IMG/VR virus record: IMGVR_UViG_3300030202_003049
Location: 1-64,000 of that record
Source of the DNA: a virus
Direction: 5' to 3' (one strand)
Length of the DNA stretch: 64,000 nucleotides
The notes beneath the pieces were generated by a model, which was not told the origin of the DNA, did not search any database, and saw nothing but the letters and a program-made list of their open reading frames with translations. The stretch's first letter is position 1, and the number at the start of each line of letters is the position of its first letter. Positions 3,769 through 27,846 of this stretch are shown piece by piece. A program made the position numbers and the translations under genes.

Positions 3769-4037
3769 TAATACTTCCAAACTTTTATAACAAGATCACC
3801 ATCTCCGCATATTAATCGATGATAAGTCATTTTTGGAATCCAATAACTTTCTCCAATAATCAGAGTTTTTGGCAACTCATTGTCAAGTTGTAATTTCCAA
3901 TTCCTACCTTCAACCAACTCAACCTTTCTGTCTTCTTTGTCTAGATGCCAGATAAGTTCATCTTGAGAAGTTTCTTTTTTAAACTCTCTCAAAAAAAGTT
4001 TTTTTCCAATTCGCATTTCGCTGAATGGGAAATCCAT
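3768..4037 (-). CDS. Cupin-like small phage protein
   Basis: An 89-residue protein with ELIWHLDKEDRKVELVEG, WKLQLDNELP, and IPKMTYHRLICGDGDLVIKV. This order of strands, with IPK..YHR..kG..dL, is recalled from marine phages, where it is taken to be a small cupin-like beta barrel. His and Trp residues are conserved in my memory of the family; no activity is known to me. Start overlaps the stop of the upstream tagged protein. Confidence 0.75.
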   Translation of the reverse strand: MDFPFSEMRIGKKLFLREFKKETSQDELIWHLDKEDRKVELVEGRNWKLQLDNELPKTLIIGESYWIPKMTYHRLICGDGDLVIKVWKY

Positions 4038-4636
4038 TACCAGAACCTACCAGGTACATTCTTGCCAAAATCTTTGTGTGCTCTACAAGCCCAATATCCA
4101 GCCTTGGTTCTATCTTTCTTTTTCTCGCACTGATGACGGGAAGCAAATGATTTGCGTGCTTCTGGGTTGTTCCAGTTTCCTTTAAGGCCACCTTTAGAGT
4201 CCCCATAGGTGATCGTCTTGACGTTTCCGGTCTTTGGATCACGAACATACACTTTGTATTTCTTGCCACCACCAGAATTCTTCATGGGTTTACCAATGGG
4301 CTTCTTCTCTTTGTCTTCTTCGATTTCTGACTTTGATTCCTCGATATACATTGGGAAATCCAAAGGAACCTCTTCTCCCTCAAACATTACCCACTCACCA
4401 AGTTCTGTGTTTTCAAGCATATCTCGTTCTTCATCGTTGACAACTTCGTAAAGACCCATCTTGTAGAACTTACGGCCTTGACTAATTGTGTTAAAATAAC
4501 AAGAAGAACCAACACGAAAAATGTTTTCATGCAAAGGGGTCTTAGTCTTTACGTGTTCCAGCAATCCAGGCTTAAACAAAACCTCTTGGGTTTCTTCGAG
4601 AATAATTCTTTCTATTTGTTCGTTTGTAAATTTCAT
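4037..4636 (-). CDS. Tagged virion-type protein with RHxC...CR domain
   Basis: A 199-residue protein. Residues 1-20 are the shared tag (MKFTNEQIERIILEETQEVL). The C-terminal 75 residues are a basic domain YKVYVRDPKTGNVK..YGD..., RHQCEKKKDRTKAGYWACR and GRFW, recalled from T4-like marine phages as a small putative virion domain with Cys/His that could bind zinc. The acidic middle (residues 85-115) is probably disordered. ATG overlaps the stop of the next gene upstream (ATGA). Likely packaged or structural; role unknown. Confidence 0.85.
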   Translation of the reverse strand: MKFTNEQIERIILEETQEVLFKPGLLEHVKTKTPLHENIFRVGSSCYFNTISQGRKFYKMGLYEVVNDEERDMLENTELGEWVMFEGEEVPLDFPMYIEESKSEIEEDKEKKPIGKPMKNSGGGKKYKVYVRDPKTGNVKTITYGDSKGGLKGNWNNPEARKSFASRHQCEKKKDRTKAGYWACRAHKDFGKNVPGRFW

Positions 4637-5376
4637 CCTTTTTTACCTCTTTTAGCCTTCTTGCCCCATGACTTTCCTTTGCCTCGTTCTTTACAAGCAC
4701 CAGGGGTTGGTCTGCATGCTGGATACTTCTTACGCTTTTCACCAGAACCACGACCGCATGATTTGTAGCCACCCTTGCCGTCAGGAGCATTACAATCAAC
4801 CCAACCTTTCTTCTTGCCCTTGGCTCCTTTACGACCGAACCAATCTCTTAATGAAGATTCTTTGCTTGATTCTGTTCCGGCCTTCTTACGCTTTTTTCTT
4901 TTTTTTTTCTTTTCATCAAGGACTGCATCTAATTCTTCCTCGATAATTTTGTTCAACTGTTCTTTAGTGATCTTAATTTCATCACCATCACCACGGACAT
5001 AATCTCCATGATCATGCTCGCCAACATCTTCCATACTGTCTAGAATTTTCTGAATCTCTTCATCTTTGGCTTTTGTAAAAACCTTCTTGAGAGCCTTCAT
5101 TCCAAGAGCACCACCTTCTTTCTTAAAGACTGCCTTAACTGCATCGGCAGTTAATTCTTTTTCTTCACTGAGGGATTCATTTTTCTTTTTAGATTTGTTA
5201 CCCCAGTTCTTGGCACCGACTTTTCTACATTTAACAAGCGCACCTGAAGCGTATGCTGAAGGCCAAACCTTATACCTTCGCTTAACTTTATGATAGCAGG
5301 CATCACGTTTTACTTTGGCTTTAGCCTTTTTCTTTTTCTTACGTTTCTTTTTTTCTTCCAAATTATCTTCGAGCAT
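4633..5376 (-). CDS. Very basic Cys-rich tagged virion-type protein
   Basis: A 247-residue protein made of modules. Residues 9-20 are nearly pure Lys/Arg. Then comes a domain CYHKVKRRYKVWPSAYASG..VKCRKVGAKNWG. A tag copy follows (IKITKEQLNKIIEEELDAVL), then a second Lys tract. Last is a Cys-rich domain GWVDCNAPDGKGGYKSCGRG...YPACRPTPGAC. Both Cys domains are recalled from marine phage genomes as small uncharacterised phage domains; they may bind zinc or nucleic acid. The charge suggests contact with packaged DNA. Ribosome site AAGGGGTG precedes ATG 5376 in a very AT-rich leader. Confidence 0.85.
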   Translation of the reverse strand: MLEDNLEEKKKRKKKKKAKAKVKRDACYHKVKRRYKVWPSAYASGALVKCRKVGAKNWGNKSKKKNESLSEEKELTADAVKAVFKKEGGALGMKALKKVFTKAKDEEIQKILDSMEDVGEHDHGDYVRGDGDEIKITKEQLNKIIEEELDAVLDEKKKKRKKRKKAGTESSKESSLRDWFGRKGAKGKKKGWVDCNAPDGKGGYKSCGRGSGEKRKKYPACRPTPGACKERGKGKSWGKKAKRGKKG

Positions 5377-5420
5377 TGAAAAGCACCCCTTATATATATT
5401 ATATATTATATTAATAAATA

Positions 5421-5744
5421 TTAATTAAAATAACTTTCAGTCTTATGCTTCTTTAAAAACTTATATAAATCACTTCTATCTATTCCTAATAATCTAGCCA
5501 TATCTTTTTTAGTTTCACATGCAGTATAAGAATATTTTAATAAAGCATCTCTACATATCTCAGGCATTGCTTTCCATAAAGGAAAATTATATAACTTACC
5601 TCCAAGTAATCTAGATGATTGTTCTAACTTAATTGCTATCAGTTCTTCTAAAGAAATAGAGGAGAGAACATTAAGAAAGTTTTCATTCAATCTTTGTTCC
5701 CTCCTCAGTTTATTAATAATGGAGTGGTTCTTTTTATTTGACAT
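5421..5744 (-). CDS. Fis-type helix-turn-helix regulator
   Basis: A 107-residue protein whose C-terminal 35 residues form a Fis-like HTH: ALLKYSYTACETKKDMARLLGI..SDLYKFLKKH. The N-terminal 65 residues are helical and basic. Small HTH proteins of this kind occur in marine phages and are thought to be transcription factors. It sits between virion-type operons, so a late-gene activator is possible but not shown. GTTGAGGTAC precedes ATG 5744. Confidence 0.8.
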   Translation of the reverse strand: MSNKKNHSIINKLRREQRLNENFLNVLSSISLEELIAIKLEQSSRLLGGKLYNFPLWKAMPEICRDALLKYSYTACETKKDMARLLGIDRSDLYKFLKKHKTESYFN

Positions 5745-5764
5745 CAGTACCTCAACGTGTTACA

Positions 5765-6634
5765 TTAAATTGAAGTCTTTGCTTGTTCGTATTCTGGGGT
5801 AGTTGGTTCTGATAGTTCAGTTGCCAGTTCTCCTTCGAACTTATCAAAATACAACTTCATGTTTGTGATGAGGTAATCAACAAAAATCTTTTTGTCTTGA
5901 GGATCTGTTAATAAATCATAAGCATCAAGTATGTACTGACTAACTTTCTTGTGAGTAGTATAAGCCATGTTTTTACCAGTTTCATCCATTTCTTCCAAAC
6001 CAGAGCCAAAATCATCTTTTTCTTGTTCGGCAGGAGATTTTTCTTTCTCCCCTTCAATGTCCAAATCTTTTGTAGGATCAGGATCAACATCAATGTCGAT
6101 ATCCTCTTCCAATTCGATGTCGTCTAAGTTAAGATCATCAATGTCAGCCAACATTTCATCTGATGGACTGGTTGCTTCTTCGCTACCACCAGCAAGACCT
6201 GTAGGTTCGGCCATTAATGCACCAGAGTCTTGTAGGTACATGTCATTGACAAGTGCCGGCATGAGTGATTGTTTAACAGCATGGAGCATGTGTGCCCTGA
6301 ACGAGTCACGTTGTGCTTTTGATGTCGTGAGGCGTTTGTAATCTGTGCGAAGAGTGGTAATCATTTTTTTCAATACATCTTCGAGAACATTAATACCGGT
6401 AGATCGATGAGGATGCATATCAGAGAGGTCACCTTCCTTGAGAAGTGTTTGACGAATAATTTTTCTTAAACGTTCTTCTTGGACTAGTATTTCATCTTTT
6501 TGAGCCATTCTTCTAGAGATTTTTTCTCTAATAATTTTTCTTAATCGCTGCTCTTGGATAATTTCATCTCTCATTGATTCTTCCTTTAGTGTATTAAACA
6601 ATTGCTTAAATGAAGTAACTTCAACTATGCTCAT
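5765..6634 (-). CDS. Tagged virion-type protein
   Basis: A 289-residue protein. Two copies of the helical tag lie near the start (QRLRKIIREKISRRM and ERLRKIIRQTLLKEG). A helical domain with TTLRTDYKRLTTSKAQRDSF follows, then a long Asp/Glu-rich linker (residues 150-210) and a C-terminal helical domain. Frame overlap ATGA couples it to the metallopeptidase gene upstream. The tag and position suggest a capsid-associated protein; the acid tract is scaffold-like. Function unknown. Confidence 0.8.
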   Translation of the reverse strand: MSIVEVTSFKQLFNTLKEESMRDEIIQEQRLRKIIREKISRRMAQKDEILVQEERLRKIIRQTLLKEGDLSDMHPHRSTGINVLEDVLKKMITTLRTDYKRLTTSKAQRDSFRAHMLHAVKQSLMPALVNDMYLQDSGALMAEPTGLAGGSEEATSPSDEMLADIDDLNLDDIELEEDIDIDVDPDPTKDLDIEGEKEKSPAEQEKDDFGSGLEEMDETGKNMAYTTHKKVSQYILDAYDLLTDPQDKKIFVDYLITNMKLYFDKFEGELATELSEPTTPEYEQAKTSI

Positions 6635-8025
6635 TTGAGTAACCTTTTGATAAGTTTTTTATTTTCTTTAAGAATACTGTTGATTGACTCTTTAAGATCT
6701 TCCCTTGATATAGCACCACTAACAGCACCGCCACTAGAGGTTTCTTCAAGGCCTCTCGACAAACGGTCTGATGCTCGACTAAATGCAGCATTCATATATT
6801 TTTTAGATAATGTTTCATCGTCTTTAAAGGCAATAAAACCTTCATCTTCCCTTAGTCTGTTCACTATGTCAATAATTTTCTTAACAAACGGTTTTTGTCG
6901 CTCAGGTGCGCCTCTATTTGCTTTGAATCTCTTCTGCGCTGCTTCAAGGGCCTCTTCGGGTTCACTATTTCCCTGATCGGCTAAGTACCTAACATAGCCC
7001 ATAATAGGTGAACTTTTATACTGATGCCCACCTGGTCCCGGGAAGCCAATCTTTTTCAAGTCAGTAGTCCCCCAATAATCTTTATTAAAATCTTGTTCAA
7101 GTGCGCCTTTAAATCCCTGAGCAATATTGGAAACATCTCTCTTGATCGTTCCTCCAATACCTCTGAGTGTGTCCATAATGCCTTCTTCAATCTCTTCTTT
7201 CTTTGGACACTTGCATTCCTCACCTTTACCTTCACATTCAGGACACTTTATGCCCATCTTTTCCAAGTCAGCATCAGTTGGTGTATCACGTCCACTCGAG
7301 GTGAGACTTTGGGTGTATAGATCTTCTATTTTTTCGGCAGTTCTTTCTTTCTCTCCGTATTTTAAATTTACATATTTCTTCATAAAATCGGGATCTACAC
7401 TATAGGTTACATTGGCTTCCTCGAGTTCTTCACCTCCAGAGGCACTAATAACATCAGCGCGTGTCACTTTGTCCTTTGGCGGCTCTAGTGCTGCAAGTTC
7501 ATCCTGTGACAACTTCTTTTCATTAAGGATGTTTGTCTTGATTCCCCACTTCTCCATAAGGTTTTCAAATAATTCTTTGTTTTTCCATTCTCTAAGTGAC
7601 ATTTGATTCTCCTGTGTCTTTAAAGTATCCTCGTATTCACGAAGATAGTGATTACCTTCAAGCATTGCTTCTTGCTCTAATTCTTTTAAGGCTTCATTGT
7701 GTAAATAGTATCCTTCTCCATGATAGCCTCCAACGTCCAATCTGCCCTCTAAATTCTGTTGATGATGAATTAATTCATGGGCAATTGAACGAAGCATGTC
7801 TTTTGGATGTCTACCATCAGTGTAAACATGTATCTCAAACGTCTGAGGATCGTAATACGCTGTCTTTCCAAGAGTATTGGGGGCATTACTAGGGTCGGAG
7901 TCTAAGAAGAGCGTAGGAGGCCTAGAGAAGCCAATCTGATCATCGAAATGTTTGTACATTCCTTGAATATGCTGTTCAAGATCTCCGAGATCCATACCAG
8001 AATTGTTTATAACCTTACAATGCAT
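6631..8025 (-). CDS. Zinc metallopeptidase-like virion protein
   Basis: A 464-residue protein. Residues 1-140 form a metallopeptidase-like domain with HELIHHQQ (residues 83-89, HExxH) and downstream Glu residues (NEALKELEQEAMLEG) that could give the third zinc ligand. A four-Cys cluster CPECEGKGEECKC is near residue 250. The C-terminal half is helical with a PGPGGHQYKS segment, and the last 25 residues (ESINSILKENKKLIKRLLK) resemble the shared helical tag. Similar HExxH proteins are recalled from marine phages as virion-associated. Substrate unknown; it might process phage or host proteins. Confidence 0.8.
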   Translation of the reverse strand: MHCKVINNSGMDLGDLEQHIQGMYKHFDDQIGFSRPPTLFLDSDPSNAPNTLGKTAYYDPQTFEIHVYTDGRHPKDMLRSIAHELIHHQQNLEGRLDVGGYHGEGYYLHNEALKELEQEAMLEGNHYLREYEDTLKTQENQMSLREWKNKELFENLMEKWGIKTNILNEKKLSQDELAALEPPKDKVTRADVISASGGEELEEANVTYSVDPDFMKKYVNLKYGEKERTAEKIEDLYTQSLTSSGRDTPTDADLEKMGIKCPECEGKGEECKCPKKEEIEEGIMDTLRGIGGTIKRDVSNIAQGFKGALEQDFNKDYWGTTDLKKIGFPGPGGHQYKSSPIMGYVRYLADQGNSEPEEALEAAQKRFKANRGAPERQKPFVKKIIDIVNRLREDEGFIAFKDDETLSKKYMNAAFSRASDRLSRGLEETSSGGAVSGAISREDLKESINSILKENKKLIKRLLK

Positions 8026-8032
8026 ACACTAA

Positions 8033-8293
8033 TTAGTCCTTTGAATCCATTTTACGTAACATATGAATTAAGACATTTGTCGATATGTTTTGTCCAAACG
8101 GTACTATTTTTGCCATCACAACATACCGGGACCCTTCAGGTATACTAATGATATCTGTTATAGTGCCATAATTGATCACATTTTCGTAACCATTAGGTCC
8201 ATAAACAAATTCAGTCCAATAAACTAAGTCACCTATGTCAAATTTTGACACAAATGACTCTCCAAATGAGTTATTTTTAACTGAATTGATCAT
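8033..8293 (-). CDS. GDLV-family SH3-like protein
   Basis: An 86-residue family member with a longer N-terminus: KFDIGDLVYWTEFV, YGTITDII, RYVVMAKIVPFG and VLIHMLRKM. The strand pattern matches the array proteins but divergence is high and it stands alone in the virion-type module. Ribosome site is weak. Confidence 0.7.
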   Translation of the reverse strand: MINSVKNNSFGESFVSKFDIGDLVYWTEFVYGPNGYENVINYGTITDIISIPEGSRYVVMAKIVPFGQNISTNVLIHMLRKMDSKD

Positions 8294-8300
8294 AAATAAG

Positions 8301-8432
8301 TTATTTTATAAAGCACAGATAGAATAAAAGACAAATTGAAACAAACTCTGCTCCAAAAACTACGTAGAATAACATTGTTACGAGAAGCAAAACGGTTAAG
8401 GTAAAATAATTTTTTATTTTTTCATCCAACAT
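8301..8432 (-). CDS. Single-span membrane microprotein
   Basis: A 43-residue peptide starting MLDEKIKNYFTLTVLLLV. Most of it is hydrophobic, enough for one or a tightly bent pair of membrane spans. ATG 8432 overlaps the stop of the upstream gene (TGATG), which supports real translation. Function unknown; small membrane proteins of this kind in phages include holin helpers and exclusion factors. Confidence 0.7.
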   Translation of the reverse strand: MLDEKIKNYFTLTVLLLVTMLFYVVFGAEFVSICLLFYLCFIK

Positions 8433-8758
8433 CAATTAAATCCTAGCAAAATCACTTCTTCTTTAGGTACTCTGATGATTAAACCACTTGCGGCAACATA
8501 ATGAGAGTATAAATAGTAGTATTTGTCTTCATCTGGGTCTTTCCAAGGCATAACGAAGTATTCAGACCGTCTTGGGACCCTAACTGGCTTCTTATCAGTA
8601 AAAGAATAGTAGTGACCGTAGCCTTCCCCTTTTATAATTGCCAAAGGAAGCAACTGACCAGTGTCAGAGATGGTAAATGATTGCATTTTCGTGGCTAAAG
8701 CACGCGGTTTTTTGTAAAGACTCTCTTTGCTTATCTTGTTTAAGAGTTTTTTCTTACT
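8432..8758 (-). CDS. Unknown small protein
   Basis: A 108-residue protein starting at a GTG (8758) that overlaps the stop of the HAD-Nudix gene and follows a GGAGGAGACGGTGG region. It has basic N-terminal residues (SKKKLLNKISKESLYKK) and a beta-rich remainder (GHYYSFTDKKPVRVPRRSEY, YYYLYSHYVAASG). A longer frame to 8833 only reads through the glycine tail of the neighbour in another frame. No family recognised. Confidence 0.7.
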   Translation of the reverse strand, partial: SKKKLLNKISKESLYKKPRALATKMQSFTISDTGQLLPLAIIKGEGYGHYYSFTDKKPVRVPRRSEYFVMPWKDPDEDKYYYLYSHYVAASGLIIRVPKEEVILLGFN

Positions 8759-9983
8759 CACCGCCGCCACCGTCTCCTCCGCCGCCGTCTCCGAACGAAC
8801 CATCAGAAGATGAGGTGTCATAATAGCCTCCATAAGGCCAGTATGCTACTTTACGTCTTCTTTTTTTAGATTTTTTCTTCTTTTTCTTGCGTTTTTTCTT
8901 TTTTTCATCCAAATCATTGGTGATTTTAATTTTTATTTTTCTTTTTTGCTCTTTTTCTTCCTCAAAAACACCAAAACCAACAGGAGCATTCTCTCCTCGG
9001 TTATAATCCTTGACTCTTTTGAGTCCTTGCGCCCCAGTTGACTTAGCGCCCCCCTGTCCGATCAGCGCTTTCTTTTTTTTGGCATACCCTTTCTTCATTC
9101 TTTTCTGAAAAGTGTACGATTCTTCAAGGGTTGCATCACTTTCATACAGGTCAATGCATCTTTTAAGCAACTCAGTGGCGCCTTCTTTGGCTTTTATCAT
9201 GATATGTTCAATATCATGGACATAATATTCAGTATTTTCCTGATCCAGTTGTATCACACCGTCCAATTCATCGCTTGAATAGTTTGTTCTGCCGAGAAAA
9301 TAGTGTATTGTTTCATCTTTTCCTCTAAAACTGAACTCTTGTGACTCAATATACTGCAGGTGGACCATTTGAAAACCAATTTCTTCCCTTACTTCTCTAA
9401 AAAACCCATAGTTTGGAGTCTCACCAGAGCGACAGTGACCACCTGGAACATCCCATTCGCCTGTATCTGCTCTTTTAAGGATGATTAAGCGATCATCTGA
9501 AGTCTTAACAAAGCCTTTTGACACATTATCGGTGTCTTCAAGCCCTTCATCAGGATACTTGACCACAATATCAAAGTCATCATGCAGTTTTCTAAAGGCA
9601 ACTATGCCTTCGTGTTCTTTAGGACAGTCATCAAAGTGTAGAGACGACCCTAATTCGTATAGTTTTTGTGCTTTTAACTGACCTTCAGTGTAATAAACAG
9701 GCACATCGATTTCTAGTTTCTCTAAATATGTGCTAACTGCGAAGCGTGGCTTCTCTAAAGCCTTTCTTCTAGCGGTCACAATCAAGACAGAGTAACCTTT
9801 TTTCTGAAATTGTTTTAAAGTGGCAACCATTTGTTGGTTAATCCCACCAAAACGCCAGTCATCTTCACCTTCTTCGTCAAACATTTCGTGATGAAAGACT
9901 AAAGTGTTGTCAAAATCAAAGGTGACAACCTTTCCGTTTTTATTTTCGTTAAGATTTTCCATAATTTTTAAATATTTTTTCAT
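8754..9983 (-). CDS. HAD phosphatase-Nudix hydrolase fusion with basic tail
   Basis: A 409-residue fusion. Residues 18-125 are HAD-like (TFDFDNTLVF; LIVTARRKAL; FDDCPKEH). Residues 160-280 are a Nudix domain with a complete box GGHCRSGETP..FFREVREEIGF (181-204; GX5EX7REUXEEXGU). After residue 300 come a basic segment, the KIKIKITNDLDEKKKK tract similar to the tag plus poly-Lys, and a Gly/Asp tail. HAD acts on phosphoesters and Nudix on nucleoside diphosphate derivatives; ADP-ribose, capped RNA or nucleotides are possible substrates. The poly-Lys tail and module suggest packaging with DNA. AGGTGA lies seven bases before ATG 9983, behind a good promoter. Confidence 0.85.
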   Translation of the reverse strand: MKKYLKIMENLNENKNGKVVTFDFDNTLVFHHEMFDEEGEDDWRFGGINQQMVATLKQFQKKGYSVLIVTARRKALEKPRFAVSTYLEKLEIDVPVYYTEGQLKAQKLYELGSSLHFDDCPKEHEGIVAFRKLHDDFDIVVKYPDEGLEDTDNVSKGFVKTSDDRLIILKRADTGEWDVPGGHCRSGETPNYGFFREVREEIGFQMVHLQYIESQEFSFRGKDETIHYFLGRTNYSSDELDGVIQLDQENTEYYVHDIEHIMIKAKEGATELLKRCIDLYESDATLEESYTFQKRMKKGYAKKKKALIGQGGAKSTGAQGLKRVKDYNRGENAPVGFGVFEEEKEQKRKIKIKITNDLDEKKKKRKKKKKKSKKRRRKVAYWPYGGYYDTSSSDGSFGDGGGGDGGGGE

Positions 9984-10002
9984 TTATAAGTCACCTATTA
10001 TT

Positions 10003-10031
10003 AATATAACACATTTGTGTTAAGTTGTCAA
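10003..10031 (-). promoter_or_regulatory. Sigma-70-type promoter
   Basis: TTGACA at 10026-10031, 17 bp, TATATT at 10003-10008 with TGT extension. Drives the HAD-Nudix gene and those to its left. Confidence 0.8.
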
Positions 10032-10040
10032 GTTGTTATT

Positions 10041-11531
10041 TTAACTAACTTGGCTAAAATTACCAAAATCAATTATAACTATTTCTCCGGTATCGTCCTT
10101 TACCATCACATTAAGGCTGTGAAGGTCTCTTGGTACCAATCCAACCTCATCTCTAAGGGCAACAAATGATCTTTCAAGCGATTTTGCTGCTTCTGGCATG
10201 TCCTCACGTCTCCCACCGGCAGTGTTATCCAGTGTAGATGAGTAATACCCAGTAGGGATCACTGTAAACTGTCTCGGATACTGAACGGCATCCTCAATCA
10301 TCATGATAATTTCGCTAACCATGTCCTCTCTGTAGGGTAATCTGGCAATTACTTCAACAATTGAAGCAATAACAGCCATAATTCCAAGTTTTGACACCAT
10401 TCTGTCGCCATAATCTGAGTTTATGACCCTTTCTGTGTTGTCAATTGCTCTTGCGGTCCTAGGAAACGCCTCTAAAACGTTATTTTTGGCAATATTGTAC
10501 CTTGTAAGCATCGCATCGTCAGAAATTCTATCAATATTTACAAAATAATTGTAAAAAACGCCCATTGCGGCATCACGAAAGCCTTGAGCAATCTTAACTT
10601 CCTCTGGACCCATCGCAGACCAGTCTAATTCTGACATTAAGCCTTGATATAGATCAGCAACCATGTCTTCGACCTGTCCTATGCTGTGTAAAAAGACATT
10701 TTCTACTCTTCTATCAACACTAACCTCTCTATCTTGCAGTTGAGGTTCGTCTGAGAGCGGCAATGGTTCATTAAAACCCAAATTATCTCTCTGCAAGTAA
10801 TATTCAAGGCCAGCAAACAGACTATTTACAATTTCTTGAGAGTAAGGACTAGGCTTAACCAGTTCCATGATGACATAACCAAGTATTCCATCGTCAATTA
10901 TCTTCATTCCGCCTTCATAAACCTTTGGAAAGTGCTTTGCAACCTTTTCATTGGCATCTACAGCAATACCTACGTTCTCATAATTACTGATTTCCTGCTG
11001 TATCTTGAAAGTATCGGCAGATCCTGGTTGGTTTCCAGTCTCACTGCTAAGAATCTTTACCGCAACCACTCCAAACTCAGGGTGATTTCCCTTGTAAACG
11101 TTACCAAACTTACCAGATGCGATGTATTCGAGGCCAGAAACTCCAATTAAGTTCTCTATCTCCATCGCATTCAACTCTTCTTTGATAACTTCCTTTAATT
11201 CACCCATGTCTCTTAGCACGGAGGCAACATAAGCAGAAGCCTTTTTTTTAGATAGACCCTTGGTTCGCTTAATGCAACGCACTTTGCCATCAAAAGTTTT
11301 GTTATCAAAACAATCTTTTTTCTTTTCCTCTAGGGTTCCATCTCCATAACCACCACCGTATTCCCAATCGGGTTCATCCCAGTGAAATGCTTTGGCTTCT
11401 AGTTCCAACTCATCTTCCATTACATTTTGAAGACCTTGGTGTTGAGATCTTTCAACATGCCCCGCATGCTCTGCCTCTCCAGAATGAATTTTTATCCTGA
11501 AATATCCCTTTGTCCCGCTGGTTGAAAACAT
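10041..11531 (-). CDS. Protein-kinase-like tagged protein
   Basis: A 496-residue protein. Residues 1-40 hold YFRIKIHSGEAEHAGH, a segment recalled from marine phage structural proteins. Residues 84-107 have CIKRTKGLSKKKASAYVAS. A tag-like helix LKEVIKEELNAM spans 112-123. Then come kinase motifs: glycine loop ASGKFGNVYKG (138-148), VAVKIL with Lys159, a catalytic loop PRDLHSLNVMV near residue 467, and IIDFGNFS at the very end. About 250 mostly helical residues separate the N-lobe from the catalytic loop, and no activation segment or APE motif follows DFG. It may be an atypical kinase delivered into the host; substrate unknown. Confidence 0.75.
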   Translation of the reverse strand: MFSTSGTKGYFRIKIHSGEAEHAGHVERSQHQGLQNVMEDELELEAKAFHWDEPDWEYGGGYGDGTLEEKKKDCFDNKTFDGKVRCIKRTKGLSKKKASAYVASVLRDMGELKEVIKEELNAMEIENLIGVSGLEYIASGKFGNVYKGNHPEFGVVAVKILSSETGNQPGSADTFKIQQEISNYENVGIAVDANEKVAKHFPKVYEGGMKIIDDGILGYVIMELVKPSPYSQEIVNSLFAGLEYYLQRDNLGFNEPLPLSDEPQLQDREVSVDRRVENVFLHSIGQVEDMVADLYQGLMSELDWSAMGPEEVKIAQGFRDAAMGVFYNYFVNIDRISDDAMLTRYNIAKNNVLEAFPRTARAIDNTERVINSDYGDRMVSKLGIMAVIASIVEVIARLPYREDMVSEIIMMIEDAVQYPRQFTVIPTGYYSSTLDNTAGGRREDMPEAAKSLERSFVALRDEVGLVPRDLHSLNVMVKDDTGEIVIIDFGNFSQVS

Positions 11532-11559
11532 AAATTACCCTTTAAACACTATAAATAGT

Positions 11560-13110
11560 TTAACAACCCCAAACTGCATACTCTATTTCGATTGTTTGAC
11601 CCTCTGCTGGAACGTGGCCTTCATTGAAAGTAACTGAATTAGTGACAGAATCATAAGTCCATTCAGATGAGACTTGACCATTGACAGTCACGATTATCGT
11701 ATCTAGTATTGGATCTTCTTCATCTAGTCCGTATGTAACACGGTCAGTTAAGGTAGAACCTAGTGCCTGCAGTTGAGTGCCCCAATCAACAGCGCACAAT
11801 GAATACCAGTCTCCACCATAGTGATTAACAAGATCCCAATAGCCAGCACCAAACTCAATGTTTCTAGGGAACGCATGTACGGTTGATTGACACCCTGTTG
11901 GAGGGTCTCCAATAACAGCATAAGGAACAAACATGCCGGTATCCTTGAGGCCATCGAAGAATTGAAGATAAGTAACCCATGGAGCAGACCAGTCCTTCTC
12001 ATCAGAAACAAAAATCACAATGAGCGAAGCCTCGTCCCTAAAAAATTGTGATCCAGGACCGGCAATTGCAGGGTTCGATAGCGCTTGAAATGCCATCTCT
12101 ATGCCTTGTTCCATCCCGGCACCCATGATACCTACGTTAACCATATTGGCGAGTGCCATCTCCGGCATAGGCGTTCCATTGTTGATAATTCCATGGAGGT
12201 AAGGACTAGTAGTTGTTATTACAGACATATTGTAGTCAGGCGCACTAGCAAGAAATGCTTGGAAAAAAGAAAATATTTGATTTGCCAATAGAGATTGGTA
12301 AGGATTCATAGAACCAGAATCATCGATAACCCATAGAATGTCAAGAATCTCAATGGGAGTTTGCTCGTGTCTTTGATAATGCCATTGCTCAACGTCACCA
12401 CTTCCTTCTTGTTCAGCAGTAACCTCAGGACGAATAGGATCATTTGATTCAATAACGACTTCGCTTCGATCCCACCCAACATCACTCGGAACATAGGTGA
12501 CAAGAAAGTCAATCTCGGTATCAGGTTCAATCGTCCAAGGAGGCGGAGGCATCGACCCAAAATTTATTTTTATATCAACGGGATTGTTTACCATTTGAGA
12601 TACATTCTCGATAACCAAAGGCATATTGCCATCATTTCGAAGTGTAACTCGCTCCTCATTGTCACAACCTATCGATACATCGCCATAATCAAACAGAGAC
12701 GGCGTTACAGACAAGACCGGGGCATTACCATAGCCTTCCAAGTTAATGCGCACTACAGGCTCATCAGGGTCATTAGATGCAATCTCAATAAACCCACCAT
12801 TGGATTCAAATGTCTGGGGAATGTATGATACATCAAATACAAGATGTTCTCCTGGTGCAATCACCCATGACTGTTCCGGAATACCACCCAGAGAGAAGCG
12901 ATCATTTCCCGATACCAATTGAGGAGTCTGGATTGTAAGATCGCGTTGCCCACTGTTAATAACGGCAAACTCTTCCAGTGCGGTTTCTTCACCGGAGGTG
13001 AGATGCCCAAAATTTATATGCTCCGGAAATGCCATGATGTTTTGCACATCAGGTTTTGCGGTTAACGCAATGTCCGAGCACCCCAGTAAAGCAAGTAAAA
13101 TCCATAACAT
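11560..13110 (-). CDS. Surface lipoprotein with ASH-type repeats and VWA domain
   Basis: A 516-residue predicted lipoprotein: MLWILLALLGC forms the signal with lipobox ALLGC. Two ASH/choice-of-anchor-type beta domains follow (INFGHLTSGEET...; LFDYGDVSIGCDNEERVTLRN). A VWA domain with MIDAS DDSGSM is near residue 260. The C-terminus is beta-rich with a final Cys. Such lipoproteins are usual in myxococcotes and bdellovibrios and are rare in phages. It could modify the infected cell surface (superinfection exclusion, adhesion) or be a virion tip. An RBS-containing hairpin lies in its leader. Confidence 0.8.
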   Translation of the reverse strand: MLWILLALLGCSDIALTAKPDVQNIMAFPEHINFGHLTSGEETALEEFAVINSGQRDLTIQTPQLVSGNDRFSLGGIPEQSWVIAPGEHLVFDVSYIPQTFESNGGFIEIASNDPDEPVVRINLEGYGNAPVLSVTPSLFDYGDVSIGCDNEERVTLRNDGNMPLVIENVSQMVNNPVDIKINFGSMPPPPWTIEPDTEIDFLVTYVPSDVGWDRSEVVIESNDPIRPEVTAEQEGSGDVEQWHYQRHEQTPIEILDILWVIDDSGSMNPYQSLLANQIFSFFQAFLASAPDYNMSVITTTSPYLHGIINNGTPMPEMALANMVNVGIMGAGMEQGIEMAFQALSNPAIAGPGSQFFRDEASLIVIFVSDEKDWSAPWVTYLQFFDGLKDTGMFVPYAVIGDPPTGCQSTVHAFPRNIEFGAGYWDLVNHYGGDWYSLCAVDWGTQLQALGSTLTDRVTYGLDEEDPILDTIIVTVNGQVSSEWTYDSVTNSVTFNEGHVPAEGQTIEIEYAVWGC

Positions 13111-13117
13111 AAAAAAC

Positions 13118-13139
13118 CCTCCTATAGTTAAATAGGAGG
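13118..13139 (-). promoter_or_regulatory. Hairpin containing the ribosome binding site
   Basis: CCTCCTA and TAGGAGG pair (13118-13124 with 13133-13139). The 3' arm on the minus strand contains AGGAGG, seven bases before ATG 13110, and is followed by GTTTTTT. It can act as a weak terminator or as an RBS-masking hairpin. A TTGACA lies upstream at 13153-13158 but no convincing -10 follows. Confidence 0.5.
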
Positions 13140-13174
13140 ACTTTCACACAATTGTCAATTAAGAGGCAATTTTA

Positions 13175-13840
13175 TCATACATACTGGCCCGGAGACGTAC
13201 TGCGTTGATTTTGTTCGATTTGCGCATTTTCGAATCCAACGTAGTATCTATCCTGCTCTTCATCGGTTAAGTCATCAGGGTTAATTTCATTTTGACCTTC
13301 CATTTTACCACCAGCGGCACCATCAGCCCTACCGGCCATTTCAATATTCAACAAGTGCTCGGCTTCCAACTCTTGCAGTGCTGGAAGAAGAGGCGAATTA
13401 AGAACGCTTTGGATAAATTCGAGTCGTTCCTTTAAATCTTCAATGTCTTCGGGACGATCAAAGGCTAGGTCATAGGACATATCCACCATTTGATTATAGT
13501 GTCGCTCATCCGTTTCATCCATCAAGGGAGAAAGAAGCGGCTCAACTTGGCTAATGTAACCACCATACGGTTGCAGCAGTTTTGGTAGCCCACCATTGTC
13601 TTCACCTGGGGCACCGTCTAACACATGCTCAAGAGCACTCTCAATAAATTCTTCTTCTTCGGTTATATAGTCATCGAGGTTATTGATTTGCACCAGTACA
13701 GCACTGATTTCACCGATTGCTTGCACGGCACCGTCTGCCATTTGTTTAATAAGATAATATATATTATCTTCTCCTTCATTCATCACGGCATCAATCTCTT
13801 CCTTGATGATTTGCAATATTTGTTTTTGTGTAAATTTCAT
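13175..13840 (-). CDS. Tagged virion-type protein
   Basis: A 221-residue acidic protein starting with the tag MKFTQKQILQIIKEEIDAVM. The rest is largely helical (YYLIKQMADGAVQAIGEI; DIEDLKERLEFIQSVLNSP) with an unstructured, Gln/Asn-rich tail. No enzyme motif. It is third in a run of three tagged genes reading from 14743. Likely packaged; function unknown. Confidence 0.8.
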   Translation of the reverse strand: MKFTQKQILQIIKEEIDAVMNEGEDNIYYLIKQMADGAVQAIGEISAVLVQINNLDDYITEEEEFIESALEHVLDGAPGEDNGGLPKLLQPYGGYISQVEPLLSPLMDETDERHYNQMVDMSYDLAFDRPEDIEDLKERLEFIQSVLNSPLLPALQELEAEHLLNIEMAGRADGAAGGKMEGQNEINPDDLTDEEQDRYYVGFENAQIEQNQRSTSPGQYV

Positions 13841-13850
13841 TGTTTATTCC

Positions 13851-14156
13851 TTATATTAATGCGAATGCATCATCGCCGTCGTCATCTTTTACCATTTTAA
13901 TCGCTTCGTTTTCAAGCATTTCTTTAAGTGCTTCTTCAAGTTGTTGTGTGAGTTTTGGTATAGCGGTTGGACTTGGTGCTGGATTTCCTGGTGAGTCATC
14001 ACCATATATTTCATCAAACAATTCTTTGAAAGTAAAATTTCCAAATTGTAATTCATCTTTTATTTCTTGTTCTAGATCCATGTGATCATCTTCACTAAGC
14101 ACGGCGGCGATTTCTTCCTTGATTATTTGCGTTATTTGTTCTAATGTAAACTTCAT
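13851..14156 (-). CDS. Tagged virion-type protein
   Basis: A 101-residue acidic protein starting with the tag MKFTLEQITQIIKEEIAAVL. A short acidic segment, TFKELFDEIYGDD, a proline-rich linker and a C-terminal helix (KLTQQLEEALKEMLENE) follow. The start overlaps the stop of the next tagged gene by four bases (ATGA). Function unknown. Confidence 0.8.
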   Translation of the reverse strand: MKFTLEQITQIIKEEIAAVLSEDDHMDLEQEIKDELQFGNFTFKELFDEIYGDDSPGNPAPSPTAIPKLTQQLEEALKEMLENEAIKMVKDDDGDDAFALI

Positions 14157-14743
14157 GATAATTCTTTCTCAATTTTGTCGGCAAGTTTTGGATTAATTTC
14201 TCTAAGATCCTGCATGGTAAAATCTAAATCTTGGGGGTTTGGAATTTGTATACTGTTTAGTGATTCTAAAAGCACTTGTGCTAATTTTATAATCTCTGGC
14301 ATTCTAAAATATCTTGGATTGAGATCGCCCGCTGTACCAGGAATCATCGCATCCGAATTCATAAAGAGACCTTTCATATAGGATTGCGTTTTTTCATCTA
14401 CACCAGATTCTTCAATCGCGTATTTCATAGTGTAATCAACCGCATTCGGGAGAAATCGTTGGTCAAAAATATCTAATGCTTTCTCATTTGCGGGTGGCCT
14501 CATTCGTGGGAGGTCTTGTAGAGCGGCTACATCTTTTGTAGGTTCACCCGTGTAACCGGTTTGATCATCAGGCTCAAAATAAGTTAAAGCGTTAGGGCTT
14601 GCTGCATCTGCGAGAAAAAACTTCACCATCATAATAGGAATTATCGGCAACGACGGACCCCTTTGATCGTTCACTTCTTCTCCCAATACAGCAGCAATTT
14701 CTTCTTTGATAATATTCATCACTTGTTCTTGTGTAAACTTCAT
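14153..14743 (-). CDS. Tagged virion-type protein
   Basis: A 196-residue protein starting with the tag MKFTQEQVMNIIKEEIAAVL. The body is helical with FDQRFLPNAVDYTMKYAIEE and no enzyme motif known to me. GGAGATTTAA precedes ATG 14743. It is the first gene of the tagged trio and lies just after a strong terminator; the leader contains TATAAATG about 50 bases upstream, which resembles a T4-type late promoter box, but this is speculative. Confidence 0.8.
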   Translation of the reverse strand: MKFTQEQVMNIIKEEIAAVLGEEVNDQRGPSLPIIPIMMVKFFLADAASPNALTYFEPDDQTGYTGEPTKDVAALQDLPRMRPPANEKALDIFDQRFLPNAVDYTMKYAIEESGVDEKTQSYMKGLFMNSDAMIPGTAGDLNPRYFRMPEIIKLAQVLLESLNSIQIPNPQDLDFTMQDLREINPKLADKIEKELS

Positions 14744-24196: not shown

Positions 24197-24394
24197 TTAT
24201 GCTATGACTTCGAGCGAACGGATGTTTACCCAAGTGCAAAGTGCTCCAGTTGGGCGGTTGAGCCATCTTACCTTTGCTTGCACACAGGTTGTATCGACAA
24301 CTAGGGCTAAGTATTGTCTATCAGTAAATCCATTCCTATCCACCCAACCGTATCTTACAAGATCCCCGACCCTTATCAAGTCGCCTATTTGCAT
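24197..24394 (-). CDS. GDLV-family protein with doubled N-terminal motif
   Basis: A 65-residue member, MQIGDLIRVGDLVRYGW..., in which the family start motif appears twice in a row, probably a small internal duplication. Core DTTCVQAKVRWLNRPTG and end LEVIA. It is the closest relative of the gene at 24814-24984. Start lies inside the 3' end of the next gene upstream. Last gene before a promoter. Confidence 0.85.
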   Translation of the reverse strand: MQIGDLIRVGDLVRYGWVDRNGFTDRQYLALVVDTTCVQAKVRWLNRPTGALCTWVNIRSLEVIA

Positions 24395-24561
24395 ACTACC
24401 TCCAAGTCACGATTATCAGCCCCCCATCGCTGGCCAGTATCAATATAAGAGATCAGCCAATCGAATGAAGTTCCAATGGTTGTAACATAATCCTTAGCAA
24501 GGATAATCGCTATTCTTCTTTTGCTGATTGAGCGATCAATAACTAAATCACCTACTTGCAT
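24385..24561 (-). CDS. GDLV-family protein
   Basis: A 58-residue member: MQVGDLVIDRSISKRRIAII, IGTSFDWLISYID, end LEVVCK. Nearest relative is 25187-25363 (VGDLVIDRS and IGTxFDW shared). Its last codons contain the GGAGGTA and ATG of the gene at 24394. Too short for many gene callers but the start and overlap are clear. Confidence 0.85.
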   Translation of the reverse strand: MQVGDLVIDRSISKRRIAIILAKDYVTTIGTSFDWLISYIDTGQRWGADNRDLEVVCK

Positions 24562-24731
24562 ATCTTCTCCAGTTGTTCAGGGTATTTCCAGTTTGAACAA
24601 TCTCCAACTAACCAACGAACTTTCAAGACAAGCGCGAGGTGGTCATTGAAACTTGTCTCTGTAATAATCCCGATGACAAGGGGTGTATTGTCACGATAGG
24701 TTATGTTTCTTACTAAATCGCCTACTTGCAT
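24552..24731 (-). CDS. GDLV-family protein
   Basis: A 59-residue member: MQVGDLVRNITYRDNTPLVI, GIITETSF, LKVRWLVGD, end LEKICK. First gene of its sub-operon; GGAGACACA before ATG 24731. Overlaps the following gene by ten bases. Confidence 0.85.
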   Translation of the reverse strand: MQVGDLVRNITYRDNTPLVIGIITETSFNDHLALVLKVRWLVGDCSNWKYPEQLEKICK

Positions 24732-24759
24732 TGTGTCTCCTTGTTTGTGTTACATAGGT

Positions 24760-24787
24760 AGTGTATCACGGTAGTAGGATTTGTCAA
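24760..24787 (-). promoter_or_regulatory. Early cassette promoter, variant -10
   Basis: TTGACA at 24782-24787, 16 bp, TACACT at 24760-24765, TGA extension. Confidence 0.8.
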
Positions 24788-24813
24788 GAAAAAAGATAAA
24801 GTTTTTTTTGAGA

Positions 24814-24984
24814 TTATGCTACGACTTCGATTGCTTCGAAGTATACCCAACTTGAAAAAGTATCACCAGACGGAGAAGTGAACCAGTGAACATTAGCCTG
24901 AACACAGGTCGTATCAAGTACAAGGCCCAAGCGAGCAACAAAGTTAGGGTCAGGTCTGAGTGTTACTAAATCGCCTACTTGCAT
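24814..24984 (-). CDS. GDLV-family protein
   Basis: A 56-residue member: MQVGDLVTLRPDPNFVARLG, LDTTCVQANVHWF, end IEVVA. Shares DTTCVQA with 24197-24394, showing a recent duplication. Start chosen at ATG 24984 behind GGAGTTAGT; upstream in-frame codons are inside the neighbour. Confidence 0.85.
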   Translation of the reverse strand: MQVGDLVTLRPDPNFVARLGLVLDTTCVQANVHWFTSPSGDTFSSWVYFEAIEVVA

Positions 24985-25190
24985 ACTAACTCCAACTCGT
25001 GCCATACGAACCATTCAAGGTTCTCTCCATCTATGTGTATCTTGAACAGTGTGCAGGGGGTCGGCTCTATGTGGTCATCCTTGGCCTCAATGATAATACC
25101 TATCTTGCCCTTGTAATGCTTTGCGTTGCTGGGGCCGAGAACGTAGGGCAAACGCTCTTCGTTGAACTTTACTAATGAACCTACATTCAT
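24975..25190 (-). CDS. GDLV-family protein
   Basis: A 71-residue member: MNVGSLVKFNEERLPYVLG, KIGIIIEAK, TLFKIHIDG, end LELVCK. Ser replaces Asp in the GDLV motif. Overlaps genes on both sides. Confidence 0.85.
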   Translation of the reverse strand: MNVGSLVKFNEERLPYVLGPSNAKHYKGKIGIIIEAKDDHIEPTPCTLFKIHIDGENLEWFVWHELELVCK

Positions 25191-25363
25191 ACTACCTCCA
25201 AATAACGGCTATCTACGCCCAGTATGTCTCCGGTCACGAAGTAGAAAACACCCCAGTCAAACGGGGTTCCAATGTCTGTATAGAACCCATTAGTGACAAT
25301 CATCCCGATTGCTTGATTGTTATTACCTAATGAACGGTCAATAACTAAATCTCCTACTTGCAT
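25187..25363 (-). CDS. GDLV-family protein
   Basis: A 58-residue member: MQVGDLVIDRSLGNNNQAIG, IGTPFDWGVFYF, end LEVV with TGA overlapping the next ATG. Close relative of 24385-24561. Confidence 0.85.
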   Translation of the reverse strand: MQVGDLVIDRSLGNNNQAIGMIVTNGFYTDIGTPFDWGVFYFVTGDILGVDSRYLEVV

Positions 25364-25539
25364 ATTACCTCCAGATCACCTGTGTGTTCCCATGCCCTCA
25401 GTGATGCCACACCCAGTCCGTTAGGACAGAACCAATGGACCAAAACGCATCCGTTGTCTCTTTGTCCTTGTTCTAGGATAATACCAATGCTGTACCCTCT
25501 CCCGCTAGGGCTTATCTGTACTAAATCACCTACTTGCAT
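25354..25539 (-). CDS. GDLV-family protein
   Basis: A 61-residue member: MQVGDLVQISPSGRGYSIGI, VLVHWFCPNGLG, end LEVICK. GGAGGTAAT precedes ATG 25539 within the upstream gene. Confidence 0.88.
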   Translation of the reverse strand: MQVGDLVQISPSGRGYSIGIILEQGQRDNGCVLVHWFCPNGLGVASLRAWEHTGDLEVICK

Positions 25540-25706
25540 ATTACCTCCAAGTCATTGGGTTGTTTCCAGTGTTTCATTCCGTTGCTGTACTGGACAAGGA
25601 TGGGTGCGCCACCGACACGAGTGTTATCAATCACTATTCCAACCCAGTCTATCTTCATACCATCTGGGTATTCCTTCCTGTATCTTACCAGACTTCCTAC
25701 TTCCAT
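25530..25706 (-). CDS. GDLV-family protein
   Basis: A 58-residue member: MEVGSLVRYRKEYPDGMKID, WVGIVIDNTR, ILVQYSNGMKHW, end LEVICK. First gene of a five-gene sub-operon (25530 down to 24814) with GGAGACAATA before ATG 25706. Confidence 0.85.
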   Translation of the reverse strand: MEVGSLVRYRKEYPDGMKIDWVGIVIDNTRVGGAPILVQYSNGMKHWKQPNDLEVICK

Positions 25707-25737
25707 TATTGTCTCCGTTCTTGTTGGTTACATAGGT

Positions 25738-25765
25738 AATGTATCACGGTAGGAGTATTTGTCAA
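25738..25765 (-). promoter_or_regulatory. Early cassette promoter
   Basis: TTGACA at 25760-25765, 16 bp, TACATT at 25738-25743. Confidence 0.85.
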
Positions 25766-25766
25766 G

Positions 25767-26000
25767 TCAAAAGGCAAAGTTTTTTTCTTTTTTTTCAATG
25801 ACCTCGAAGTCTTCGGCTTCCTCTTCCCATTGTTCTCCGTTGCACCACTGAATGAGATACTGACGGATGCCGATGAGAGAACAATCACTTCCGTCATCCT
25901 CGGCAGGGTCGCGATAGTCCATCACAATGCCGATAAGTTTAGTGTTAGGGGTCCAGACCTCTCTTAGTTTTACTAGGTCGCCAATCTCAATGTTATCCAT
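25767..26000 (-). CDS. GDLV-family protein
   Basis: A 77-residue member: MDNIEIGDLVKLREVWTPN, LIGIVMDYRDP, YLIQWCNGEQW, FEVIEKKEK. Acidic (EEEAEDFE). ATG 26000 overlaps the upstream stop and has GAGGTGATTG before it. It ends in the A-rich box upstream of the next promoter. Confidence 0.85.
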   Translation of the reverse strand: MDNIEIGDLVKLREVWTPNTKLIGIVMDYRDPAEDDGSDCSLIGIRQYLIQWCNGEQWEEEAEDFEVIEKKEKNFAF

Positions 26001-26181
26001 CAATCACCTCCACATTCTTTTGTCGAACAAAACCCATTGAATGGTCGTTCCAGTAGATTTTGCACATTTGATACCTCTTTTCTGCCCAGTTCTGACCGAG
26101 CGTTTCAGTCCACATTTTTACTACGACACCTATCATTTCGGGACGGCCAGCCCTGTATTTTACTAAATCTCCTACTTGCAT
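25993..26181 (-). CDS. GDLV-family protein
   Basis: A 62-residue member: MQVGDLVKYRAGRPEMIGVV, CKIYWNDHSMGF, end VEVIDG. Start ATG 26181 behind GGAGTTATT. Confidence 0.85.
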   Translation of the reverse strand: MQVGDLVKYRAGRPEMIGVVVKMWTETLGQNWAEKRYQMCKIYWNDHSMGFVRQKNVEVIDG

Positions 26182-26405
26182 AATAACTCCAGCCATTCAG
26201 GTTCGTAGTGACATTCATTGCCGTTAGCCCATTGCACATTGACATACTCGTGGTCGCGGACACCATTGGGATGGTTCACTTGTCGCCCCCATTTCTTGGT
26301 CACGATACCGATGAGTTTTAGACCATCCTTGCCCTTGATGTACCCAGCCGATGAGGGCAGCATCACTAAATCTCCGACTTCTATCTTCATTGTGTCTATC
26401 TCCAT
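26172..26405 (-). CDS. GDLV-family protein
   Basis: A 77-residue member: MEIDTMKIEVGDLVMLPSS, LIGIVTKKWGR, VNVQWANGNECHY, end LELLCK. Two starts are possible (26405 behind AGGTGAAAC, or 26390). Confidence 0.82.
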   Translation of the reverse strand: MEIDTMKIEVGDLVMLPSSAGYIKGKDGLKLIGIVTKKWGRQVNHPNGVRDHEYVNVQWANGNECHYEPEWLELLCK

Positions 26406-26662
26406 GTTTCACCTGTGCTAATGTTGGTTAGTGGAAAACCACCAGAGTTATGTTGTCTCCAACCACCGACGTGCTTAGGGCTGAGATAGATGTGTCTCGT
26501 ATGGAAGTCGCTCACGTCTGGGTGTGGGGTAGGTATGTACAAGACCACGATAGCAAAGTCGGGCATCTGTGCCGTCAGTATCTCTTGCACAATACCAAAC
26601 TCTTCCTCTGGTCCAAATGTGCATAGGTCAGAGACAGTAAATGGGATTGAATAATCAGTCAT
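26396..26662 (-). CDS. Diverged GDLV-like protein
   Basis: An 88-residue protein starting MTDYSIPFTVSDLCTFGPEE. VSDLCTF..EFGIVQEI and AIVVLYIP follow the family pattern but the glycine is lost and the rest is unlike. CGGAGAAACA before ATG 26662. First gene of its sub-operon. Confidence 0.75.
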   Translation of the reverse strand: MTDYSIPFTVSDLCTFGPEEEFGIVQEILTAQMPDFAIVVLYIPTPHPDVSDFHTRHIYLSPKHVGGWRQHNSGGFPLTNISTGETWR

Positions 26663-26689
26663 TGTTTCTCCGTTGTTGGTTACATTCAT

Positions 26690-26717
26690 AATGTATCACG
26701 GTTGAAAGATTTGTCAA
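26690..26717 (-). promoter_or_regulatory. Early cassette promoter
   Basis: TTGACA at 26712-26717, 16 bp, TACATT at 26690-26695. Confidence 0.85.
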
Positions 26718-26725
26718 GGATTTTC

Positions 26726-26935
26726 TCAAACTTTTTTTATCTCGTACCTCTTCATCCTGAGTGTATCACCACTGGAGTACAATCCGACAATATTGAACCA
26801 GCGAATGTTTATTGGGTATTTCACCTCTGGTCGTTCACTGATTTCAACGATAACCCCCATCTTCCCACGAACTAAGTCGTTGCCTTTGTTCTTGTTGCCG
26901 GCTGCCGATAGTGTTACTAAATCGCCTACTTGCAT
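26726..26935 (-). CDS. GDLV-family protein
   Basis: A 69-residue member: MQVGDLVTLSAAGNKNKGND, KMGVIVEISER, INIRWFNIVG, end YEIKKV. GGAGGTAAT precedes ATG 26935 within the upstream gene. Confidence 0.85.
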   Translation of the reverse strand: MQVGDLVTLSAAGNKNKGNDLVRGKMGVIVEISERPEVKYPINIRWFNIVGLYSSGDTLRMKRYEIKKV

Positions 26936-27078
26936 ATTACCTCCACGTTTCGCACCAGTACCCAAAATACAACACCATCACTCCAGCGCACCCCAACTCT
27001 ATTGCCCAGCAGGCCAGTCTCTGTGATGATACCTATTCTGTTCATAATCTTATCCCTGACCAGTGATCCTATTTCCAT
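26926..27078 (-). CDS. GDLV-family protein, minimal
   Basis: At 50 residues one of the shortest members: MEIGSLVRDKIMNRIGIITE, VGVRWSDGVVFW, end VEVICK. It shows the minimal domain: four or five short strands. GGAGGTCTGC before ATG 27078. Confidence 0.85.
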   Translation of the reverse strand: MEIGSLVRDKIMNRIGIITETGLLGNRVGVRWSDGVVFWVLVRNVEVICK

Positions 27079-27087
27079 GCAGACCTC

Positions 27088-27846
27088 CTACTTTACGAGT
27101 TTTATGTCACTTTCACAGACCCAAGTCTCATCAGATTGACCTGCACTAAATGCCACAATCTTGTACAGACGGGTGCTGCCTTTAGATTTGTGCATCTGGC
27201 GGCAGGCAAACGTAGCGTTTAGAACCTCGGCAACTAGGGCTGTCTTGTAAGGCTTTGCAACTTTACGGTCTTGATAGCCGTGCAGACCGTTACGAAACTC
27301 ATCGTGACTGTAACTGATAATGCGCCAAGACGAGAATGTGGGAGCAGTTCCTCGTATGGACACTAGGTCACCTACCCCATACAGGGGGGTAGAGTTGAAG
27401 CAGGCCCACAGTTTATCACGCAGTTTGCTACCCTCCAATCTCTCAAGGCGCGGCATGTGGAGATCAATGTCATGACCTTTACGATACATCCCTAACTGCC
27501 GTCGTAACTCCACCGCGCAGTTTCTGTACCATTGAATGTGGCCCTCGTTTGGGACACTACGTCGCGACACATAGAACAAGGTCAAAAAGTCAATCCATTT
27601 GAGAAACTGCTCGTCTTTAGCATCCCACAATGCTTGCCATTCGTTACGCTTTCTTACCTGCTCCTCGTACATTTCAACAGGGAATGCTTCGATTTGCTCC
27701 TGACACCATTCAATCTGCCGAGAACTGATTTGTCCTTTCTCAAGGTACTGGTCAGCGATGCTTCGTAAAACGTGCGCCTTACTTGCTTTGCCAAGGCCCT
27801 CGCAAATGTCAGCAGTTTTTCTGATTTGTCCGATTGTGATAGTCAT
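27088..27846 (-). CDS. Two-domain protein with C-terminal GDLV domain
   Basis: A 252-residue protein. The N-terminal ~150 residues are helical (GLGKASKAHVLRSIADQYLE; QALWDAKDEQFLKWIDFL) and unrelated to other genes. The C-terminal 95 residues carry YGVGDLVSIRGTAP, RIISYSHD, ALVAEVLNATF and KIVAFSAG, the GDLV domain in a longer form. It shows that the array domain can act as a module attached to another domain. Function unknown. GGAGGTCAA before ATG 27846. Confidence 0.8.
   Translation of the reverse strand: MTITIGQIRKTADICEGLGKASKAHVLRSIADQYLEKGQISSRQIEWCQEQIEAFPVEMYEEQVRKRNEWQALWDAKDEQFLKWIDFLTLFYVSRRSVPNEGHIQWYRNCAVELRRQLGMYRKGHDIDLHMPRLERLEGSKLRDKLWACFNSTPLYGVGDLVSIRGTAPTFSSWRIISYSHDEFRNGLHGYQDRKVAKPYKTALVAEVLNATFACRQMHKSKGSTRLYKIVAFSAGQSDETWVCESDIKLVK

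Follow-up and report, generated by a model that had tools for sequence, protein, structure and literature searches.

Why should proteins that otherwise have nothing in common begin with the same short peptide? The question is raised by the window analysed here, IMG/VR virus record IMGVR_UViG_3300030202_003049 (64,021 bases, a 64 kb genome fragment). In it, the proteins encoded at 4037, 13175, 13851 and 14153, all on the minus strand, were confirmed to share a tag at the N-terminus (proteins are named here by the lower coordinate of their gene). The sequence-only reading took this tag for a capsid-targeting or prohead-protease signal, and our comparisons support that proposal through an (L/I)xE motif at the junction of tag and body, a T4-type protease and a matching capsid protein site in relatives, leader swaps, and the unrelatedness of the tagged bodies. 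From these sequence comparisons, the tag is very probably a capsid-targeting propeptide that is cleaved by the S77 prohead protease of the phage.

A leader shared by unrelated proteins

The tag, referred to as the class-1 leader, is MKITKxQLKQIIKEEL or, in a longer form, MKITKxQLKQIIKEELxxxLxE, and hundreds of unrelated proteins encoded on IMG/VR phage contigs begin with it. The phages that carry it form a large group, T4-like, uncultivated and for the most part marine. Recurrence of the tag is far above chance: a hidden Markov model (HMM) of it gave 665 matches versus 2 in reversed proteins (20,792 open reading frames, ORFs), and a relaxed DNA pattern gave 137 matches in 37 phage records versus none with the reversed pattern. 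The pattern MK(I/F)TxxQxxxII(K/R)EE matches at least 120 stretches of IMG/VR and just 8 stretches, on 5 contigs, across 84,980 prokaryote genomes; the largest of these 5 contigs (306 kb) also encodes S77. When the tags were compared by tblastn with 50,697 phage records, one weak match (LR756508, a 484 kb metagenomic phage) was found and the other two queries had none, though such short queries are insensitive. A literature search with the tag strings recovered no phage paper, which says little because the T4 string MKTYQEFIAE also went unfound.

That the tagged proteins are otherwise unrelated, as first proposed for the window, holds for the whole set. The 447 tagged bodies fall into 307 families, and only 9 of the 730 body pairs from the same locus are similar. 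Pfam and PHROG scans of 110 tagged proteins supplied family names for a handful only, each a single case (a polynucleotide-kinase-like ATPase, a tRNA-ligase phosphodiesterase (2H) domain, a FliG C-terminal domain and an EF-hand protein).

Up to 15 class-1 tags are found on one contig and they are clustered, with 80 of 101 having another within 1.5 kb (10 expected). Such clustering would be expected if the tag marked paralogues from a recent duplication, or a repeat at the level of DNA such as a start region, promoter or mobile element, with no common targeting role. Tags within one contig also have identical codons at 67% of invariant residues, where codon usage predicts 46%, and this excess, together with the clustering, indicates that the 5′ ends were copied. 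However, the bodies are unrelated, synonymous differences are present at one third of the invariant tag codons, the 20 bases upstream are not common to the tagged genes, and very different phages retain the same peptide, at N-terminal as well as internal positions. Duplication or a DNA repeat without a targeting role is thus a very improbable explanation. As codon sharing exceeds the codon-usage prediction yet a third of the codons differ synonymously, the leaders seem to have been copied from gene to gene and maintained at the protein level.

The end of the leader and a second leader class

Beyond residue 16 the tag alignment loses its information, except for a floating (L/I)xE. When one sequence per body family was counted, 147 of the 307 families have an (L/I)xE that begins at residues 17-21, compared with 10-15 in equal-width windows further on, and the enrichment, approximately tenfold, is confined to these residues. 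Where residue 20 is L or I, residue 22 is E in 79% (versus 22%, p=1.4e-23), and the coupling is also seen at registers 17 and 19 and weakly at 21, exclusively at +2. Nearly all tagged proteins have a further I-x-E at 12-14, though this is in part imposed by the search. The cleavage motif of the T4 protease gp21 is L/I-X-E, and the propeptides of the T4 internal proteins (IPs) are 10-19 aa long (PMC9026906). Near the end of the tag there is no enrichment of SxE or (A/G)xE, which sets it apart from the phiKZ site, S/A-x-E. The idea that class 1 is two coupled copies of Phi-x-x-Phi-(L/I)-x-E is kept as a description only, since no coupling was seen between position 16 and the second site.

A class-2 leader, MKLLLENWRKYLNE, which is unrelated to class 1, is found in the same gene clusters (99 matches versus 1 in reversed sequences). 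In a set picked on the first residues alone, 85 of 109 proteins have [LIV]xE at one fixed offset, with few elsewhere, and the spacing W8xx[FY]11 [LIV]12xE14 corresponds to aromatic-x-x-aromatic-[LIV]-x-E. Six body families were seen with both leader classes, the class depending on the phage. One such pair (L068, ...SYVLRE|NMGLKMFVLVGPPSVG, and L077, ...RKYLNE|QDEPTAKKKIFVLVGPPSVG) matches at 64% over 210 aa, and in the best pair homology begins just past LxE. The body of window protein 4037 is preceded by a class-2 leader instead in L174 (73% identical), while L124 and L132 retain the leader of 4037. Similarly, the HAD-NUDIX body of 8754 has the class-2 leader MKLLLENWREYLKE in L192:8434-8904 and is leaderless in L173.

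Among proteins with neither leader, [LIV]xE is slightly over-represented at residues 11-14, and this excess is absent for [LIV]xD and [AGST]xE. This hints at further leaders, for which window proteins 8754, 39987 and 42872 are candidates. The HAD-NUDIX protein 8754 (8754-9983) has a different N-terminal leader, MKKYLKIMENLNE (9945-9983), recognized by comparison with homologues. Protein 39987 (39987-41216) had been listed as containing a tag variant internally; the pattern is there, in two copies 8 residues apart (MRSILDE and VDKLLAE), but it sits in an N-terminal leader (41136-41216), where the tandem is followed by VLNE ahead of the conserved body. Protein 42872 (42872-43405) has a leader-like N-terminus, MSKKLLSEAQIRRFQSLANMPVVNE (43331-43405), found by orthologue comparison. 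Orthologues of both proteins retain (L/V)xE at the leader-body border (EQALNE and EQIVRE for 39987; PALNE, SPVNE and PVVNE for 42872), with the remaining leader variable. These three genes are on the minus strand.

The prohead protease, the capsid protein and points against cleavage

The window includes jumbo-like replication genes (DnaE, ribonucleotide reductase, ThyX, GroEL and ClpP, named from their sequences), but neither a prohead protease (Peptidase_S77) nor a capsid gene was found on its 64 kb. Because the window is a fragment of this length, the protease is documented in relatives only, and we infer that the phage itself has one. The nearest large relatives, G038, G048 and G049, encode S77, and the DnaE of protease-bearing relatives is 61% identical to that in the window. 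Of the 18 tag-bearing contigs that are 100 kb or longer, 17 encode the protease.

The gp23-type capsid proteins from tag-set phages (18 proteins from 16 phages) contain LLENQAxx(L/V)L(R/K)E|(A/S/T) near residue 60, the position at which processing takes place in the T4 capsid protein. The conserved L-(R/K)-E of these relatives is at the predicted processing site. In several phages of <190 kb, the tag cluster is 8-16 kb from the S77 protease, adjoining gp17-gp20-gp21-gp22-gp23, and just ahead of terminase and portal.

A small conserved gene close downstream of the prohead protease (L201:11515, L217:10330, L397:9371, L398:10313 and L400:12317) encodes MKKSELKNIIKECVKEVIFEEGVLSG-type proteins with a tag-like helix and IxE. 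The class-1 HMM does not match this head-module protein, which is possibly a prohead core protein.

Several observations weigh against a cleaved capsid-targeting leader. The presence of S77 in the same contigs failed as a discriminating test: 11 of 12 control contigs of at least 100 kb, chosen regardless of the tag, also encode it. As S77 is equally common in large controls, its presence indicates compatibility, not association. One tag-bearing contig, G013 (147 kb), shows neither S77 nor gp23. The hydrophobic moment of class 1 is no higher than that of shuffled sequences, and AlphaFold models of whole proteins, made without homologues, were of low confidence (pLDDT 43 for 14153 and 33 for 10041), so that neither measure supports a helix. 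The P1′ residue is frequently not a small one, and roughly one in two class-1 proteins has no LxE at 17-21. Some of the latter may stay uncut at this position, and the leader could in principle target the capsid and remain as an uncut anchor for its cargo, as encapsulin cargo peptides do. However, the +2 coupling of a floating (L/I)xE and the start of body homology at LxE make a permanent anchor improbable.

A final point of this kind is that in jumbo-size relatives the tag clusters are far from the head genes. This location would suit a helix that docks the proteins onto a hub inside the cell, such as a replication, transcription or host-takeover complex, in which case the proteins would never be in the virion and LxE would simply be the end of the helix. 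The cargo, mostly small proteins of unknown function plus a few enzymes, is also as would be expected for early takeover proteins. However, the L/I-E coupling floats over registers 17-20 (weakly 21) while occurring exclusively at +2, which is more as expected of a protease site than of the end of a helix. Moreover, a second, unrelated leader has the same end motif and swaps onto the same cargo, and these phages have the same site in their capsid protein. Docking to a hub is an unlikely explanation of the tag, and we continue to favour a capsid-targeting propeptide.

Leaders and cargo genes in the window

The suggestion that many window proteins share the tag was partly borne out: four N-terminal and three internal copies (one strong, two weak) are counted, but not the 5765 repeats or the 6631 tail. 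The description of these as virion-type proteins found no support: no window protein is a recognized virion protein. Two proteins, 13175 (MKFTQKQI) and 4037 (MKFTNEQIERIILEETQEVL), fit the N-terminal consensus proposed at first, MKFTxEQ[IV]xxIIKEEIxAVL, inexactly. All leader and cargo genes described in this section are on the minus strand.

Protein 14153 (14153-14743, 196 aa) has the class-1 leader MKFTQEQVMNIIKEEIAAVLGE at aa 1-22 (14678-14743), with IKE at 12 and LGE at 20, and a body of unknown kind with no Pfam or PHROG match. The leaders of 13851 (13851-14156, 101 aa; leader MKFTLEQITQIIKEEIAAVLSE, 14091-14156) and 13175 (13175-13840, 221 aa; leader MKFTQKQILQIIKEEIDAVMNE, 13775-13840) were both found with the tag HMM and the pattern. 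The body of 13175 is of unknown kind and has no PHROG match, and a homologue of 13851, L031:5192-5635, bears MRLTKEQLKQIIKEEIDVIMNE. Protein 4037 (4037-4636, 199 aa), which has a basic Cys module at its C-terminus (phrog_7595), carries the leader MKFTNEQIERIILEETQEVLFK (4571-4636), found with the HMM; its first site is IILE and LxE is absent at 20-22. The candidate sites in the window leaders are IKE/LSE, IKE/LGE and IKE/MNE, with ILE only in 4037.

The internal copy reported in 4633 (4633-5376), a two-module basic protein (phrog_727-like), was confirmed as a strong one. It is IKITKEQLNKIIEEELDAVLDE, at aa 134-155 (4912-4977), between the two basic Cys modules, and was found with both the HMM and the pattern. 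Among 4633-type sequences, 10 of 14 (including that of the window) have Phi-x-x-Phi-[LIV]-x-E in the same linker, and the copy may be a cut site separating two cargo modules. The variants in 10041 and in the protein at 2-886 retain the pattern but score under the HMM cut-off. In 10041 (10041-11531, 496 aa), the weak copy LKEVIKEELNAM (11160-11207, with LKEVIKE at aa 112-118) is directly ahead of the kinase-like domain, which has weak kinase matches. The other, LNRIIAEEVNASVLKE (aa 33-48, 743-793), is near the N-terminus of a protein whose gene is truncated by the end of the record. The two 5765 repeats are not counted because they fail the tag HMM and because orthologues retain the helix without the glutamate (ENVRKAIRHVL); the 6631 tail also fails the HMM and is unconvincing. 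Most apparent internal tags in relatives proved to be start-codon miscalls.

Further features of the window were recorded. The kinase-like protein 10041 includes PRDLHSLNVM and IDFG motifs and stops a few residues past IDFG, without the usual kinase C-terminal part. A secreted, lipoprotein-like protein (LLGCS) is encoded at 11560-13110 and has about 30 homologous ORFs in the phage loci that were fetched. An intergenic repeat occurs over 20 times between 16000 and 34000; on the minus strand it reads A-tract, TTGACA, about 17 bases, TACATT, and the whole resembles an array of strong early promoters of the sigma-70 type. At 24300-33000, at least 15 small minus-strand ORFs with a common Shine-Dalgarno-like stretch and an MQVGDLV start appear to be a family of small SH3/KOW-like proteins, distinct from the tag.

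Comparison with the T4 internal proteins

The resemblance is closest to the capsid-targeting sequence (CTS) of T4 IPI, IPII and IPIII, which is also a short N-terminal peptide common to unrelated proteins with (L/I)xE at its end. T4 IPII and IPIII begin MKTYQEFIAE, and in the T4 CTS targeting depends on residues 4 and 7 and processing on 8 and 10 (PMC9026906). Class 2 has the same aromatic-x-x-aromatic-[LIV]-x-E spacing (T4 Y4xxF7 I8xE10), and its membership of the T4 CTS family by sequence is plausible. Class 1, in contrast, does not clearly resemble the T4 CTS in sequence outside the end motif. For the leaders as a whole, the likeness to T4 is better supported in mode of action than in sequence. 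Each genome of these phages carries far more cargo than T4, with as many as 15 class-1 starts on one contig, and there are at least two interchangeable leader classes as well as internal copies. In phiKZ-like phages and SPN3US, virion-packaged, ejected proteins also have propeptides that are removed by a gp21-related protease, but the review does not describe one short tag shared by unrelated cargo (PMC9026906). T4 Alt, a packaged effector processed by the protease, is a parallel to the kinase-like cargo 10041; however, Alt is an ADP-ribosyltransferase and no such family match was found among tagged window proteins.

By analogy, while the head is being assembled the N-terminal peptide of 14-22 aa would bind scaffold or core proteins of the prohead core, and the cargo would be enclosed in the head. 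The S77 (gp21-type) protease would then cut at the leader end, C-terminal to the glutamate of (L/I)xE, and free the cargo within the head, internal copies serving as cut sites between cargo domains. Core binding, cleavage and packaging are what we infer from the leaders, and ejection of the freed cargo along with the DNA is proposed from T4. We conclude that the leaders appear to constitute an expanded, interchangeable form of the T4 internal-protein system. A more general reading, to which we give an even chance, is combinatorial loading. Interchangeable leaders for one prohead core, copied between genes, would bring more than 10 unrelated proteins into each virion (kinase-like, NUDIX/HAD, 2H phosphodiesterase-like and basic DNA-binding-like), and some would be polyproteins cut inside the head.

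The cultured Flavobacterium phage immuto (L412) has leader-like starts (MKKSQLREIIRKEL, FDLKKFLVENKLT-type, MENFDLKKFLVENKLTTNSKILKE and MKKQILSEQFRRMQKLAGIITES) upstream of T4-like head genes, and is a practical test system for the leaders.

If this interpretation is correct, a simple sequence signature would predict virion-carried, probably early-injected proteins among hundreds of unknown marine phage proteins, and hypothetical genes would become a catalogue of candidates for host takeover and anti-defence that can be put to the test. The leaders would also be ready-made tags for putting foreign proteins into phage heads, and the T4 internal-protein principle would be far more widely used than the three T4 proteins suggest.

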